NCBI GenBank assembly: GCA_005888095.1
Contig: VBKF01000118.1
Location: 1 to 48,227, forward strand
Direction of reading: 5' to 3'
Length of the DNA stretch: 48,227 nt
From: Deltaproteobacteria bacterium
GTDB lineage: Bacteria; Desulfobacterota; Binatia; DP-6
The position numbers and the translations under genes were made by a program. The notes beneath the pieces are model-generated. The model had not been told where the DNA came from and did not search any database. It saw only the letters and a list, made by a program, of their open reading frames with translations. Below, piece by piece: positions 1,443 through 22,597 of the stretch (position 1 is the stretch's first letter; every line of letters begins with the position of its first letter).

Positions 1443-3275
1443 CTACCGGCTCGCCGCCAATTGCTCCGCCCGATGCTCGGCTTCCCGCAGAACGCCGCCG
1501 AGTGCATCCCCGCAGAGCAACGAGAGCTCGGCCTTCGCGGTCGCCGCGGCGGCGAGCGTGACGGCCTTCTGCAGCGTCTTCGACGCCTTCCGCGCGAACG
1601 TCCTCGCCTTCTTCCCGTTGCTCGCGCCCGCGCCATGATCGGCCAGGCTCATCGCCTGCGTGATGCGACGCCGGACCGGGCGGGGCAGCGTTTCATCGGC
1701 GCACGGCTGGACGACACTTCTCAGCATGCAGCCCACGCCCTCGAAGCCGCTGTCGGGGCAAGGGGTCGTCGTGGTCGTGGTCGAAGAAGTGGTCGTTGTG
1801 GTCGTGGTCGTGCACCCGGCAAGGGCGGTGCCGACGCAGGCTCCGCTGCCGTCGCAGGTGTCATCGTCGGTGCAGCCGTTCCCGTCGTCGCAAGACGTGC
1901 CGCTCCCGTTGAACTGGCACGTCGTCGTACAGCAAGAGGTGAACGCGCCGTTCGCCGTTCCGTCATCGCACTGCTCGGGCGCTTGCACGATGCCGTCGCC
2001 GCAAACCTGTCCCAGGTAGCGCGCGACGGCGAAGTCGGTGTCGCTGCCGTTGTACGAGTAGCCCGCCGCGGCGAGCTTCCCGTCGGGTTGAAGGACGAGC
2101 GCATTGGCCTCGCCGAAGGCGCCCGGCACCGGCGTGATGACCTTCCCGCCCGTGCCGAAACTCCCATCGAGGTTCCCATCGGCGCTGTAGCGCACGAGGG
2201 CGAAGTCCTGCTCGCTGCCGTCGTTGGTGTAGCCGGCCGCCACGAGCTTCCCGTCGGGCTGGAGGACGAGCGCAAAGGCCTCGTTCTCCATGGTGACGAT
2301 CTGGGTAGTCACCTTCCCGCCCGTGCCGAAGCTCGCATCCGGGCTGCCACTGGCGTTGTAGCGCACGAGGGCGAAGGCGGTGTTGCTCGCGCCGGACGTG
2401 TAACCTGCCGCCACGAGCTTCCCGTCGGGCTGCAGGACGAGCGCAAAGACCTCGTCGTCGATGCTCCCGATCGCCGTCGTGACCTTCCCTCCCGTGCCAA
2501 AGCCCGTATCCAGGCTGCCATCGGCGTTGTAGCGCACCAGGGCAACGGCGTTGTTGCTGCCCCTGTCCGAGTAGCCCGCGGCGACGAGCTTCCCGTCGGG
2601 CTGCCGGACGAGCGCAAAGACCTCGTCGTCGACGCTCCCGATCGCGGTCGTGACCTTCCCCCCCGTGCCGAAGCTCGTATCCAGGCTGCCGTTGGCGTTG
2701 TAGCGCACGAGGGCAACGGCGTTGTTGCTGCCCCTGTCCGAGTAGCCCGCGGCGACGAGCTTCCCATCGGGCTCGAGGACAAGCGCAAAGGCCTCGTCGT
2801 CGACGCTCCCGATCGGGGTCGTGACCTTCCCTCCCGTGCCGAAGCTCGCATCCAGGCTGCCACTGGCGTTGTAGCGCACGAGGGCGAACGTGGTCTTGCC
2901 GGCGCTGGATGCGTAGCCCGCCGCCACGAGCTTCCCATCCGGCTGAAGGACGAGCGCGGTGGCGCCGCTCCCGGTCCCGATCGCGGTGGTGACCTTCCCG
3001 CCGGTGCCGAAGCTCCCATCCAGGCTCCCGTCGGTGTTGTAGCGCACGAGGGCGAAAACGGTGTTGCTGGCGTTGTACGCGTGGCCCGCCGCCACGAGCT
3101 TCCCGTCGGGCTGAAGGACGAGCGCGCTGGCCACGTCGTAGCCGTTGAAGATCGGGGTGACGACCTGCCCGCCGGTGCCGAACGCCGGGTCCAGATCGCC
3201 CGTGTTCGCCCGAGCGGCCGGCGGCAGCGCCAGCGCGGCGGCCCACAACAACACCGAGAGCGTGTGTCGCATCAT
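1443..3275 (-). CDS. Secreted delta-60 repeat protein with DUF4215-like Cys-rich segment, Thr linker and helical C-terminal domain
   Basis: I chose the start at 3275 (MMRHTL), directly before a signal peptide ending near ARA; an earlier in-frame Met at 3332 would bury the signal. Residues of about 25-420 form seven near-identical 57-residue repeats, each with FALVRYN, GSLDxSFGTGGKV and LVLQPDGKLVAAGY. These are delta-60/DUF5122 repeats, and seven copies suggest a beta-propeller. The segment from C425 (CGDGIVQAPEQCDDG) is DUF4215-like, with about a dozen Cys. A nearly pure Thr linker follows at about 489-504, then a basic, alanine-rich helical domain (505-610) with three Cys. This looks like a surface or extracellular binding protein. 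No catalytic motif was seen. Confidence 0.85.
   Translation of the reverse strand: MMRHTLSVLLWAAALALPPAARANTGDLDPAFGTGGQVVTPIFNGYDVASALVLQPDGKLVAAGHAYNASNTVFALVRYNTDGSLDGSFGTGGKVTTAIGTGSGATALVLQPDGKLVAAGYASSAGKTTFALVRYNASGSLDASFGTGGKVTTPIGSVDDEAFALVLEPDGKLVAAGYSDRGSNNAVALVRYNANGSLDTSFGTGGKVTTAIGSVDDEVFALVRQPDGKLVAAGYSDRGSNNAVALVRYNADGSLDTGFGTGGKVTTAIGSIDDEVFALVLQPDGKLVAAGYTSGASNTAFALVRYNASGSPDASFGTGGKVTTQIVTMENEAFALVLQPDGKLVAAGYTNDGSEQDFALVRYSADGNLDGSFGTGGKVITPVPGAFGEANALVLQPDGKLAAAGYSYNGSDTDFAVARYLGQVCGDGIVQAPEQCDDGTANGAFTSCCTTTCQFNGSGTSCDDGNGCTDDDTCDGSGACVGTALAGCTTTTTTTTSSTTTTTTPCPDSGFEGVGCMLRSVVQPCADETLPRPVRRRITQAMSLADHGAGASNGKKARTFARKASKTLQKAVTLAAAATAKAELSLLCGDALGGVLREAEHRAEQLAASR
2040..3200. 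repeat. Seven tandem 171-bp coding repeats (delta-60)
   Basis: The block CTTCCCGTCGGG (or CTTCCCATC variants) recurs at about 2076, 2247, 2418, 2589, 2760, 2931 and 3099. That gives a period of 171 bp, with 168 bp for the last step. The unit is in frame with the delta-60 protein and encodes 57 residues. Units 4 and 5 share long identical stretches around 2541-2593 and 2707-2760, which suggests recent duplication or gene conversion. Confidence 0.9.
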
Positions 3276-3448
3276 GCCCACGTTCGCACCATGGCAAACC
3301 GAGAGGGCGTCAATGGCAAGAACCGTACCCACACGGCGGTACCTCGGGGGCGCGGGACGCGCCCGACGCGCCCTGACACATCTGTGCCATCGTGAGTGAC
3401 AGCGGCGCGTCGTCTTGACGCAGAAACCCCCCGCGCCATACTCCGCGC

Positions 3449-4117
3449 ATGCCGAAGCTCGCCATGGCGTTGCCCGGCGCGGCGTGGCGCCATGCGGTCG
3501 GCGGCGTGCTCCTGCTCCCGGCGCTCTGTCTGGCGACCGACGTGCGGGTCGTGGCCGTCACGCCGGGCCGGAGCGCCGATGTCGTGATCGAGCGCGGCGC
3601 GCCGGTGACGATCGAGGTCGGCGAAACGGTCGAGGGGGTCAAGCTGCTGAGGGCGGACGCGCTTGGCGCGGTGCTGAGCGTCGACGGGATCACGAAGACG
3701 CTGCCGCTCGTGGGGGACCGGGCGTCCGTCGGGGATACCGCCACGAGCGGCAGCGTAACGCTGGTGGCCGACGCGCGCGGACAGTTCTTCACGAGCGGAA
3801 CCGTGAACGGACGTTCCATGCACTTCGTCGTCGACACGGGGGCCACGTTGACGACGCTCTCTCGGGCGGATGCGCGGCGCATCGGCCTCGACTTTCGTCG
3901 GGGCACGCCGATTCGAACGACAACCGCCAACGGTGTCGCGAACGGATGGCGAATGTCGCTCGACTCGGTGCGCGTCGGCGACACGACGGTGCGCGACGTC
4001 GATGCGATCGTGGTCGACAACGACACTCTGCCGGTGGGACTGCTCGGCATGAGCTTCCTCGATCGCTTCGATATGCATCGGCAGGGCTCGACGCTGGTGC
4101 TGCGGCGTCGCCGCTGA
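3449..4117 (+). CDS. Clan AA (retropepsin-like) aspartic protease, TIGR02281-like
   Basis: A 222-residue protein with an N-terminal hydrophobic segment (about residues 16-29) that is a signal peptide or membrane anchor. The first half (about 30-110) has no recognised domain. The second half has FVVDTGATLTTLS with the catalytic D129-T130-G131, then the flap region and a hydrophobic-hydrophobic-Gly block VGLLGMSFLDRF near 197-208. This is the pattern of bacterial single-lobe aspartic proteases, which act as homodimers outside the cytoplasm. It stands alone between the delta-60 gene (divergent) and the six-Cys repeat protein, and its target is not evident. Confidence 0.85.
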   Translation: MPKLAMALPGAAWRHAVGGVLLLPALCLATDVRVVAVTPGRSADVVIERGAPVTIEVGETVEGVKLLRADALGAVLSVDGITKTLPLVGDRASVGDTATSGSVTLVADARGQFFTSGTVNGRSMHFVVDTGATLTTLSRADARRIGLDFRRGTPIRTTTANGVANGWRMSLDSVRVGDTTVRDVDAIVVDNDTLPVGLLGMSFLDRFDMHRQGSTLVLRRRR

Positions 4118-4341
4118 GGGCGCACCGCGGGCGACGTCGACGGCATCCCGGGGCGCCGAGGGCGCCGTTCGCCGAGCGCCCGGGGGTGGCGCAACCGTGA
4201 CGTCCGTCACCCAGCGATGCGGCAGGTGCCGCGGCGCTGCCGTCAGCGGTTCCTCGGCCGCCACGGAAATCCGGCCCCGGGCTACGGGCACGGGCATTGC
4301 TCGCTCCGCGTCGACTTCACCCGACCACCACGGAGGCCCGC

Positions 4342-6036
4342 ATGCGCCCATCCCGCGTCTTCGCCGCCACGCTGCTCGCGCTCGCGCTGAGCACGATGTC
4401 TGCCCGGGCGGAGGATCCTCCGCCCACCGGCCCGTCGCCCTGCGTCCAGGAGTGCGCGACCGCCGCCAGGGCGGCGGCCGAGACGTGCCAGGCCGGAGGC
4501 GGGACGCTCGAGGCATGCAGGCAGGCCGCCGAGGCCCAATACCTGCAATGCACCGCGGGCTGCCCGTCGGCGCCGCCTCCGACCACCGGCGGCACGCCCT
4601 GTCTCGAGCAGTGCGGCGCGCAGGCACAGCAGGCCTTCCAGGCTTGCCGCGCGCAGGGCGGGACGGTCGACAGCTGCACCGAGACCGCCAAGGCGGGCTA
4701 CCTCCAGTGCGCGTCCGCGAACTGCGCGAACCAGGCGCCGCCGACGTGCGAGGCGCGCTGCACCGCGCTGGCGGACGGGATGCAGCAACACTGCCTCGAC
4801 GAAGGCAACGGCGCGGACAAGTGCGCCACGGTTCGCCAGTCCGCCCTCGACCGCTGCACACAGGAGCTGTGCAGCTCGACGGCGCAGACGTGCGAGGACC
4901 GATGCACCGACTTCTCCCGCGGCGTCTTCGCCGAGTGCATGAGCGCCGGCGGTACGTCGACGGATTGCGCGAACCAGGCGGCCGACGCCCGCGCGCACTG
5001 CATCAGCGAGCACTGCCAGCCCACCCCCGGGCCGACCTGCGAGGATCGCTGCCAGGCGCGCGCGAAGGCCGCGGCCGACGAGTGCGTCGCCGCGGGCCAT
5101 CCCGCCGACGCATGCACGACGCTCGTGCAGCAGCTCCTCGCCCACTGCGTCGACGAGAACTGCGCCGAGCCCGCGCCCGACTGCCGCGACGACTGCGACG
5201 AGCACGCCGAGCAGCAGTTCGAGGCATGCGTGGCCGGCGGCGGGAGCGAGGAGGCATGCCGCCGTGCCGCCGACTCGGCCGAGGGCGCGTGCGTGATGCA
5301 CTGCGGGGACGGCTCCTCCGAGCCCGACTGCCCCGCGCGGTGCGCGAGCGCGGCAGAGGACCTGAAGCAGCACTGCGTCGCGGAAGGGAACGACCCGGCG
5401 GAGTGCGCGGCCCGGGCCGCCGAGGCGGCCCGCCACTGCGTGGCCGAGAAGTGCGACGGCACGCCGGAGCCGCCCACGTGCCCCGCACTCTGCGAGCTGC
5501 ACGCGCGCGCCGACTTCGGGCGCTGCGTCGCCGCCGGCGGATCAGCGGACGACTGCAAGTCGCAGGCGATGGACGAGTTCCACGGTTGCGTCGCGCTGCA
5601 CTGCCAGCCGCCGCCTGCATGCGGGCAAGGGTGCGACGCGCGCGCCGCGCACGTCGAGCGCCGCTGCGTCCGGCACGGCGGCAGCGCGGAGGAGTGCGCC
5701 GCCGCCGCGGCCACCGTTCGCACGGCCTGCCAGGCCAAGTGCAGCCCGCCGCCACCCGACAGCTGCGATGTGGACTGCGAGCAGCGTGCGCAGGACGCCA
5801 AGGACAAGTGTACGGCCGACGGAACCGACCCTGCGCAGTGCGACTCGCTCGCGCAGGGCATGCTGGACCGGTGTCAGCAGGACTGCGGCACCGCCCCCGA
5901 CCAGACCTGCAGCGAAGAATGCGAGCAGGCTGCGCAGAACCGGCACGACACCGTCCTGCACGCGACCAGCAACGAGACCAGGGCGACGCGCAAGGGCCAG
6001 CGTCTCTTCCGGCGCTGCAGCCGGACCTGCGACTAG
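4342..6036 (+). CDS. Secreted protein of eleven tandem six-cysteine repeats
   Basis: The start at 4342 is chosen because GGAGG sits 5 bases upstream and a signal peptide (ending SARAED) begins there. The 564-residue product is almost entirely tandem units of about 47 residues, separated by short Pro-rich links. Each unit has the spacing C-x3-C-x10-C-x9-C-x10-C-x3-4-C; units 1 to 10 keep it well and the last (from about 530) is degenerate, having lost the central Cys. Between the Cys the sequence is Ala/Glu/Gln-rich and predicted helical, so each unit may be a disulfide-braced helical hairpin with paired CX3C motifs. I do not know a named family for it. The same module occurs twice in the protein at 26708-27721. 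A structural or ligand-binding cell-surface role is a guess. Confidence 0.85.
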   Translation: MRPSRVFAATLLALALSTMSARAEDPPPTGPSPCVQECATAARAAAETCQAGGGTLEACRQAAEAQYLQCTAGCPSAPPPTTGGTPCLEQCGAQAQQAFQACRAQGGTVDSCTETAKAGYLQCASANCANQAPPTCEARCTALADGMQQHCLDEGNGADKCATVRQSALDRCTQELCSSTAQTCEDRCTDFSRGVFAECMSAGGTSTDCANQAADARAHCISEHCQPTPGPTCEDRCQARAKAAADECVAAGHPADACTTLVQQLLAHCVDENCAEPAPDCRDDCDEHAEQQFEACVAGGGSEEACRRAADSAEGACVMHCGDGSSEPDCPARCASAAEDLKQHCVAEGNDPAECAARAAEAARHCVAEKCDGTPEPPTCPALCELHARADFGRCVAAGGSADDCKSQAMDEFHGCVALHCQPPPACGQGCDARAAHVERRCVRHGGSAEECAAAAATVRTACQAKCSPPPPDSCDVDCEQRAQDAKDKCTADGTDPAQCDSLAQGMLDRCQQDCGTAPDQTCSEECEQAAQNRHDTVLHATSNETRATRKGQRLFRRCSRTCD

Positions 6037-17972: not shown

Positions 17973-18146
17973 TCAGCTCGCCGCGTTCTGCAGCGTCGTC
18001 GCGGCCTGGTTCCAGAGCGACGTGATGTTCGTGCCGACGAGCTGGACCGCCGCGATCACGGCGATGGTGATCACCGCGAGGGCGATGGCATACTCCGCGA
18101 GGTCCTGCCCGCGCTCATCGCGAATCAACTGCCTCGCGAATCTCAT
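17973..18146 (-). CDS. Flp-type pilin, copy 2 of a tandem pair
   Basis: A 57-residue prepilin starting at the Met before RFARQLIRDERG, with GAGGG 6 to 7 bases upstream. The short basic leader ends in Gly. The mature part begins QDLAEYAIALAV, with the Glu at +5 that class IVb pilins need, and continues as one hydrophobic helix. It closely matches the copy at 18155-18328, which precedes it by 8 bp, so both should be on one transcript. No prepilin peptidase or Tad secretion gene is in the window. Confidence 0.88.
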   Translation of the reverse strand: MRFARQLIRDERGQDLAEYAIALAVITIAVIAAVQLVGTNITSLWNQAATTLQNAAS

Positions 18147-18154
18147 GTCAGCCC

Positions 18155-18328
18155 TCAACTCGCGGCATTCTGCAGCCCGGTCGCCGCTTGGTTCCAAAGC
18201 GTGGTGACGCGTGTGCCGACGAGCTGGACCGCCGCGATCACCGCGATCGTGATCACCGCGAGCGCGATCGCGTACTCCGCGAGGTCCTGCCCGCGTTCAT
18301 CCCGAATCAACCGCCTGGCCAATGTCAT
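18155..18328 (-). CDS. Flp-type pilin, copy 1 of a tandem pair
   Basis: A 57-residue prepilin with the same leader-GQDLAEYAIALAV arrangement, preceded by AAGGGGC. It differs from copy 2 at a handful of positions (TLARR for RFARQ near the start, RVTTLWNQAATG for NITSLWNQAATT near the end). Flp pilins are assembled by Tad systems into adhesive fibres. Two genes could tune fibre composition or raise dosage. A sigma-54-like promoter and a structured leader lie upstream. Confidence 0.88.
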   Translation of the reverse strand: MTLARRLIRDERGQDLAEYAIALAVITIAVIAAVQLVGTRVTTLWNQAATGLQNAAS

Positions 18329-18357
18329 GTCAGCCCCTTCCCGGGGTGCCCGCACTC

Positions 18358-18388
18358 GAGCGCCGGAGCGGCGCTCGTCCCCGGGGAC
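18358..18388 (-). promoter_or_regulatory. Two stem-loops in the pilin leader
   Basis: GAGCGCC-GGAGC-GGCGCTC (18358-18376) is a 7-bp stem with a 5-base loop. It is followed directly by the 12-base palindrome GTCCCCGGGGAC (18377-18388). On the minus strand both would sit about 30 to 60 bases before the first pilin ATG, inside the transcript if the sigma-54-like promoter is used. They may stabilise the mRNA or control translation. Confidence 0.4.
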
Positions 18389-18413
18389 CCGTGATCCAAG
18401 AGTGTAGGACCGT

Positions 18414-18429
18414 AGCAAGGTCGATGCCT
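18414..18429 (-). promoter_or_regulatory. Sigma-54-like promoter for the pilin pair
   Basis: The minus strand reads AGGCATCGACCTTGCT, with GG-N10-GC spacing and a TTGCT -12 element; it deviates from TGGCAC-N5-TTGC at two positions. It would start transcription about 75 bases before the first pilin ATG. Sigma-54 control is common for pilin genes, but no activator gene is nearby. Confidence 0.4.
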
Positions 18430-18624
18430 CGGCGGAAAACGGGTCGCCCCGCCGCATCCCCCTTTAGATTGAAGGTTTCGCCTTCCCGCCGGGCACGGTG
18501 GACCGTTACAAACCTGACGGTTGCGACACATGCGCGGTCACGCCGGCAGAGGATGCCGGGTCGTGCGATCACGGTTGTCGGCGGATCCCTTTTCCACTAG
18601 CCTCCCCGCTCCCCGTCCGAAACC

Positions 18625-20884: not shown

Positions 20885-22597
<1,713 letters not shown>

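Follow-up and report, generated by a model that had tools for sequence, protein, structure and literature searches.

The question raised by this locus is what a bacterium may gain from an apparently exported protein in which cysteines recur in one regular helical frame. The window, i.e. the whole stretch of 48,227 nucleotides that was analysed, carries the gene at positions 4342-6036, and a preliminary description of the sequence had proposed eleven tandem copies of a new six-cysteine module there, with over 60 Cys in one product. The features of the locus are as follows, the units and the cap being placed by their Cys pattern and the ribosome binding site and signal peptide being read from the sequence.

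4332-4336, forward strand: likely ribosome binding site GGAGG, with a 5-base spacer to the ATG at 4342
4342-6036, forward strand: whole gene of the exported protein (564 aa, 64 Cys), from the ATG at 4342 to the stop codon ending at 6036
4342-4410, forward strand: likely Sec-type signal peptide MRPSRVFAATLLALALSTMSARA
4441-4563, forward strand: unit 1
4600-4725, forward strand: unit 2
4747-4872, forward strand: unit 3
4891-5016, forward strand: unit 4
5038-5163, forward strand: unit 5
5182-5304, forward strand: unit 6
5329-5454, forward strand: unit 7
5479-5604, forward strand: unit 8
5620-5742, forward strand: unit 9
5764-5886, forward strand: unit 10
5908-6030, forward strand: C-terminal cap C-x3-C-x31-C-x3-C, basic, without the central Cys pair

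The signal peptide, as read from the sequence, is probably cut after SARA and before ED, and similar N-termini are found across the 10 complete relatives that were compared with the array protein. The count of 64 Cys upholds the "over 60" of the preliminary description, and its formula, C-x3-C-x10-C-x9-C-x10-C-x3-4-C, fits ten units, the x3, x10, x9 and x10 spacings being constant in 10/10 and the final gap being 3 in four units and 4 in six. The claim of eleven copies needs amendment, however, in that ten six-Cys units are followed by an eleventh element (aa 523-563) that is a four-Cys cap with both outer CX3C pairs and zero central Cys; since 31 = 10+1+9+1+10, the cap has the length of a full unit minus the central pair. 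The proposed extra central Cys pair is likewise retained for the ten units, whose spacing fits a central rung, but not for the eleventh.

Two trivial origins of the pattern were rejected. Chance or a compositional artefact was ruled out by shuffling the residues beyond residue 23 of the chain 5000 times. Scored with a pattern slightly looser than the formula above, the shuffled chains gave a mean of 0.06 units and a maximum of 2, against the real 10. A simple DNA tandem repeat was ruled out because Tandem Repeats Finder gives no array between 3182 and 8556, and the units have thus diverged; mean non-Cys identity between units within arrays is 24%. The unit best kept between families is unit 8 (40% mean non-Cys identity, three f1 versus four f7 proteins).

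A search of genomes of the class with a profile made from the units, as the preliminary description had suggested, finds 12 arrays, spread over 11 of the 148 genomes. Five of these genomes are among the seven listed for the window's own family (f1), five belong to f7, where G012 has two arrays, and one to f16. At E<=0.001 no array is found in G003 and G004 (f1) or in G044 (f7), nor a second array locus in the window's own genome. The 11 unbroken arrays hold 8-10 units each. The array of G002, a genome of the same genus as the window (L034, G002:C277, 1564-4753), is split over two reading frames, through either an assembly error or a broken gene. Scans of the phylum, which sample a larger group with few candidates scored per genome and therefore give lower bounds from draws that are probably much alike, find the array in at least 2 of 395 genomes (the window's genome and G012) and in at least 1 of 395 (G012). 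Among 72,556 plasmid records and 50,697 phage records, none gives a match at E<=0.01 that would mark the array as mobile cargo.

The units are not only repeated, they are also arranged in an order. With close pairs and the G112 array left out, 418 of 734 best unit matches join units in equal positions counted from the C-terminus, against 80 expected, and with these kept the count is 495 of 964 against an expected 105. This unit order is common to two families, f1 and f7; the G112 array is without cap and without the common order. Pairs from the same genus show purifying selection, with dN/dS of 0.38, 0.25 and 0.24 and with 64/64, 58/58 and 53/53 Cys kept; the ratio is 0.56 for the more distant pairs (window/G006 and window/G018).

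The unit consensus was drawn from an alignment (A2) that covers ten of the 12 arrays and holds 88 of the 109 units; it omits all eight units of G031, all eight of G002 and five units with an odd loop, an odd last gap or an extra Cys; a staggered alignment (A3) was misaligned and was discarded. The six Cys are invariant in these 88 units, partly by construction since the units were picked by Cys pattern. Ala stands at +4 after the second Cys in 74/88 and after the fourth Cys in 65/88, and a hydrophobic residue directly follows the third Cys in 75% and the fifth Cys in 80%. Because the tendency C-x3-A-x3-[FL]-x2-C-[LVI] is common to both helices, the unit may be a duplicated helix.

The loop between the helices bears on whether the protein is a multi-headed protease inhibitor, in which each hairpin would offer its loop to a protease as in the alpha-hairpinin trypsin inhibitors. 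Single hairpins of such kind inhibit trypsin in plants (excerpts of PMC7191063), the units differ while each tends to stay in its own place, and a few, e.g. units 2 and 9 of the window protein, do carry a trypsin-type P1 residue. Yet Lys/Arg makes up 0-11% of nine aligned loop columns (20-30 of A2, 88 units), and 0-2% of five of these, so that most units are without such a residue, and the loop keeps a Gly (72/88 at column 24) rather than being hypervariable. Inhibition is consequently a rather improbable role for the array.

When all Cys of the 11 mature proteins are listed with no pattern imposed, the gaps are 3-4 (228), 9 (101) and 10 (206), plus the linkers; with the broken G002 stretch set aside, x3 and x10 are present in every unit, and the gaps that vary across relatives are the loop (9-13, units with an extra loop Cys aside) and the last gap (3-5). 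Departures from six Cys occur in nature, and three of them are changes by pairs. In each of the 11 f1/f7 arrays the cap has x31 between its outer pairs and neither central Cys; G005 carries a unit of eight Cys in which the additional pair is also in register (position sums 45, 44, 44, 44); and a second extra pair in G005 sits before the unit that follows it. Two departures are of a single Cys, in G024/G031 and in G112, and leave an odd Cys total in 3 of 11 mature proteins (G024, G031, G112); these count against a perfectly closed disulfide system.

Facing residues in an antiparallel hairpin have a constant sum of positions, and the spacings x3/x10/x9/x10/x3-4 give such a sum, from which we infer a nested three-rung ladder, C1-C6, C2-C5 and C3-C4. 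The position sums over 106 six-Cys units are largely forced by the search pattern; independent support for the pairing comes from the unfiltered spacing, the natural departures and two solved alpha-hairpinins, VhTI and BWI-2c, in which the sums of paired Cys are constant (7+29 and 11+25; 11+32 and 15+28; excerpts of PMC7191063).

The helical hairpin envisaged in the preliminary description is borne out by AlphaFold2, which predicts two helices with a short turn for every unit, the two being presumably packed antiparallel. A three-unit model made from a six-row alignment has six helices, a mean pLDDT of 88 and a pTM of 0.38. The mature chain, modelled from two aligned rows, has 22 helices, i.e. 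11 hairpins including the cap, at a pLDDT of 70.4 and a pTM of 0.19; zero residues reach a pLDDT of 90, and all ten tethers fall below 50 over part of their length. Given the whole-chain pTM of 0.19 and only two aligned rows, the arrangement of the beads is not given by the model. The hairpin fold is well supported by these predictions, and the function of the chain is suggested by the features discussed below.

Closure of so many disulfides would call for the demanding oxidative folding route that the preliminary description foresaw, and the genomes are equipped accordingly. All 14 genomes tested have a DSBA-family match, the non-carriers G003, G004 and G044 among them, whereas VKOR is found in 10 of 14 (8 of 11 array carriers and 2 of 3 non-carriers). 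Every VKOR match (10/10) is accompanied by a DSBA match in a frame of equal length, and these frames are read as VKOR-DsbA fusions; that of the window's genome (G000:C210:10106-11206, reverse strand) has both matches within 415 residues. VKOR does not track the array, being absent from the carriers G001, G002 and G006 (G001 and G006 are 80-82% complete). DsbA/VKOR is thus a plausible oxidation route for the array protein, which with a putative 32 disulfides would be a demanding natural client for the system.

Alternatively the Cys might stay reduced and hold copper(I) or a similar metal in thiolate clusters, like those of the Csp proteins or metallothioneins. Csp1 has CX3C pairs on helices, as does the array with its 64 Cys in one protein, and a multicopper oxidase is encoded in the window at 20885-22597. 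The Csps bind Cu(I) in Cys-lined four-helix bundles (excerpts of PMC9484137). Against a metal store, Pfam gives no family for the window protein at E<=10 and none common to the 11 array proteins at E<=1, one DUF (0.23) being found in one protein. Moreover, the protein is likely exported into a compartment with DsbA, the absence of a Cys pair from the cap and the in-register extra pair fit disulfides, and the mature chains have 0-6 Met each. The copper monooxygenase model PF02461 matches 0 of 14 genomes, and its control was silent too, hence the result is uninformative. A metal store is, on this evidence, quite unlikely.

The charge of the array is predominantly negative. The mature window protein has a net charge of -39 and its relatives -7 to -80; the units average -4.0, with 15 of 101 positive, whereas the cap is basic (+2 to +8 in 11 arrays). 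The 90 linkers contain, in 636 residues, 223 Pro, 129 Asp/Glu, 6 Lys/Arg and 0 dibasic sites. These numbers weigh heavily on a further possibility, that the protein is a polyprotein precursor whose ten hairpins are cut apart after export to act as antimicrobial peptides against other microbes. The gross plan is that of the plant cassettes, with a signal, up to 12 modules, a short C-terminal part and a fixed order (excerpts of PMC11591084 and PMC7191063). But the linkers offer neither dibasic sites nor more than the few Lys/Arg noted, and antimicrobial peptides are described as positively charged (in the same excerpts of PMC7191063) where the units and the mature protein are acidic. The chain might be cleaved at sites of another kind, but we regard such processing as having only a slim chance of being the explanation.

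The cap, found at the end of every f1 and f7 array, also occurs elsewhere in a shortened form. A second protein of G037 (L043, G037:C99, 5806-7506, reverse strand) begins with a likely signal and a single unit, followed by a Cys-rich spacer, a cap-like element with x27 in place of x31 and a part of ~385 residues, whose GCW...GHA...D motif we take to recall a transglutaminase-type cysteine enzyme. Since unit and shortened cap stand together in this enzyme-like protein, the two may form a docking pair. By extension the hairpin-plus-cap pair could be a docking tag that holds enzymes, the array being a scaffold that groups cargo with the same tag. At E<=0.01 the cap profile matches 13 of the 145 class genomes, of which ten are array carriers; the G037 protein is the only full-length match outside arrays, and the other three genomes give weak matches of 22-25 positions. 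Against this extension, the evidence is one protein in one genome, without a Pfam, NCBIfam or significant PDB match; among 145 genomes at E<=0.001 it matches array units (G001, G012) and the array of its own genome, the remaining match, in G103, being weak and reading as an unrelated protein, with none in the window's genome. Such a docking tag for cargo is accordingly unlikely.

A related question is whether the hairpin exists outside arrays. The A2 profile at E<=0.001 matches 16 of 148 genomes, i.e. the 11 array carriers and five (G025, G030, G036, G102 and G105) with one partial unit match each, over positions 7/8-38 and in frames of 760-806 residues, which were not counted as arrays. A motif with three Cys, CWRAGEI/CRRAGEI...RC...C, is common to these five and to G017 (loci G025:C53:46529-46621, G036:C45, G030:C88, G102:C91, G105:C222 and G017:C49), so that a hairpin with the inner frame of the unit turns up in other families of the class as well. 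The protein of G025, the only one scanned, is a DUF3604 protein. Its hairpin resembles the array unit in the C-x10-C-x9-C frame (CWRAGEI...RC...G.....C..RA) and differs in being a single partial three-Cys unit inside a large protein; it is possibly a related hairpin, the source of the module, or a case of convergence. A further partial unit match lies in G006 (C236).

The neighbourhood was compared by searching the ORFs of the window's first 25 kb and of ten stretches (7-18 kb) at E<=1e-12, much of it being outside the view in the same-genus contigs of G001 and G002, which are only 8.0 and 7.2 kb. Between genera there is no clear common neighbour, only three weak similarities (27-30%) whose places do not correspond. 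One is between a delta-60 repeat protein of the window and a G005 frame (27-28%), one concerns a gene read from its sequence as CoA-transferase-like in G002 and G024/G031 (28-30%), and one is a 177-residue match of G031 with G037 (30%). Within genera, G024 and G031 have many neighbours in common and G018 and G037 one region.

Several neighbours deserve mention in their own right. Directly upstream of the array gene, 3449-4117 (forward strand) encodes a clan AA (retropepsin-like) aspartic protease, TIGR02281; neither this gene nor the downstream phosphotransferase-like gene has a counterpart beside other arrays in the stretches compared, those of the same-genus G001 and G002 included. The delta-60 repeat (DUF5122) protein at 1443-3332 (reverse strand) combines a weak Cys repeat of the myxo type with a Thr-rich stretch, and its C-terminal part contains further Cys; the frame near the G005 array that is 27% similar to it lies at L035 14358-16496. 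At 17973-18457 (reverse strand) two overlapping short frames contain a 182-base direct repeat in two copies with 85% matches, and the repeated part, as read from its sequence, resembles a small Flp-type pilin.

What, then, could the chain do? Acidic units, linkers without dibasic sites, rare Lys/Arg in the loop and the common unit order favour a protease-resistant scaffold tethered by its cap. The Sec-exported chain would consist of ten alpha-helical hairpins that each fold on their own, followed by the cap hairpin. In every unit the two antiparallel helices would face each other across the three in-register disulfides that staple them, Ala and hydrophobic residues lying between the rungs. Periplasmic DsbA would make the bonds and the VKOR-DsbA fusion protein would re-oxidise it. 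The Pro/Asp/Glu-rich tethers of 5-12 residues would hold the beads apart, yielding an extended, acidic, protease-resistant chain, and the basic two-disulfide cap may anchor this chain to a partner or an anionic surface. The common unit order across families suggests that the beads are not interchangeable, so that the chain would be less a spacer that simply expands than an ordered multivalent scaffold, either periplasmic or on the cell surface. To this best explanation of the whole, a protease-resistant multivalent surface or periplasmic scaffold of stapled hairpins held by a basic cap, we give about even odds (roughly 0.5). A more ambitious version sees a convergent bacterial architecture of ordered three-rung hairpin chains, with the cap as a docking element borrowed by a secreted enzyme and the whole as an extracellular assembly scaffold; it is tentative and, as it stands, doubtful. 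The natural four-, six- and eight-Cys versions would in any case offer a ready-made series on how disulfide rungs stabilise a minimal hairpin.

Comparison with known families and systems gives no close match. Beyond the Pfam result above, the sole NCBIfam match is far below cut-off (15.1 versus 166.9 bits), nothing in the PDB is significant by sequence (best E 0.64 with phmmer and 0.1 with the unit profile), and fold searches at E<=0.001 match nothing in the PDB (Foldseek) or in the viral set, the best values being 1.4 and 0.23. In a VIA-align comparison with 81 chains the top Z is 6.5 over 44 residues, in unrelated proteins, and the absence of a family there proves nothing. Among the matches listed, the open-licence literature has no bacterial array of such kind.

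Small Tim proteins have two CX3C motifs on antiparallel helices, and the likeness to them put forward in the preliminary description holds for the pattern only: the array has no Pfam match, it is bacterial and in tandem within one chain, and its units have an extra central Cys pair. The inner four Cys form a twin CX10C that is close to the CX9C/CX10C hairpins of the CHCH or twin CX9C mitochondrial proteins; the array differs in its x10 and x10 spacing, extra outer rung and tandem plan, again with no Pfam match, and the only CX9C protein among the PDB matches listed for the unit profile has an E value of 3.3. The Csp copper storage proteins are also helical with many Cys on helices, but for the array no Pfam match is found, two-helix beads rather than a four-helix bundle are predicted and the evidence favours disulfides. 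The SCREPs, secreted tandem disulfide-rich domains joined by linkers, with high avidity reported in those characterised (excerpts of PMC6262176), are, in these excerpts, a descriptive class around toxin-like folds, whereas the array is made of helical hairpins in bacteria; its tandem Cys-rich units recall theirs, with a likely signal peptide read from the sequence and with putative disulfides.

The nearest kind is that of the plant alpha-hairpinin cassettes, which qualifies the view that the module belongs to no known bacterial family: that view agrees with the Pfam, NCBIfam and PDB results, but tandem stapled alpha-hairpins have been described in plants. In excerpts of PMC11591084 and PMC7191063 the plant motifs are a 4C form, CX3C-Xn-CX3C, and a predicted 6C form, CX3CX3C-X4-20-CX3CX3C, and the precursors have a signal, cassettes of up to 12 modules and a short C-terminal part, the number of modules varying but not their order. 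The solved alpha-hairpinins are absent from the phmmer and profile matches listed for the PDB, short repeats being hard for HMMER. Predicted helix-loop-helix units, putative nested disulfides, 4 or 6 Cys and tandem modules behind a signal are common to both. The array units fit neither the 4C nor the 6C spacing published in these excerpts: their third Cys pair is x10 further in (C-x3-C-x10-C) and they are mostly 41-42 residues long, and the CX3C-x31-CX3C of the cap compares with 11-13 in the proven 4C members. On charge alone the acidic array also parts from the cationic plant peptides, and it is further set apart by linkers without dibasic sites, by its bacterial host and by a basic cap in two families. 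The likeness thus extends to the predicted fold and the tandem plan but to neither Cys spacing nor charge, and it is apparently convergent; the array is filed as a variant beside the plant alpha-hairpinins rather than as a member of them, and with it the bacterial repertoire gains a helical hairpin of six Cys whose Cys frame is distinct.
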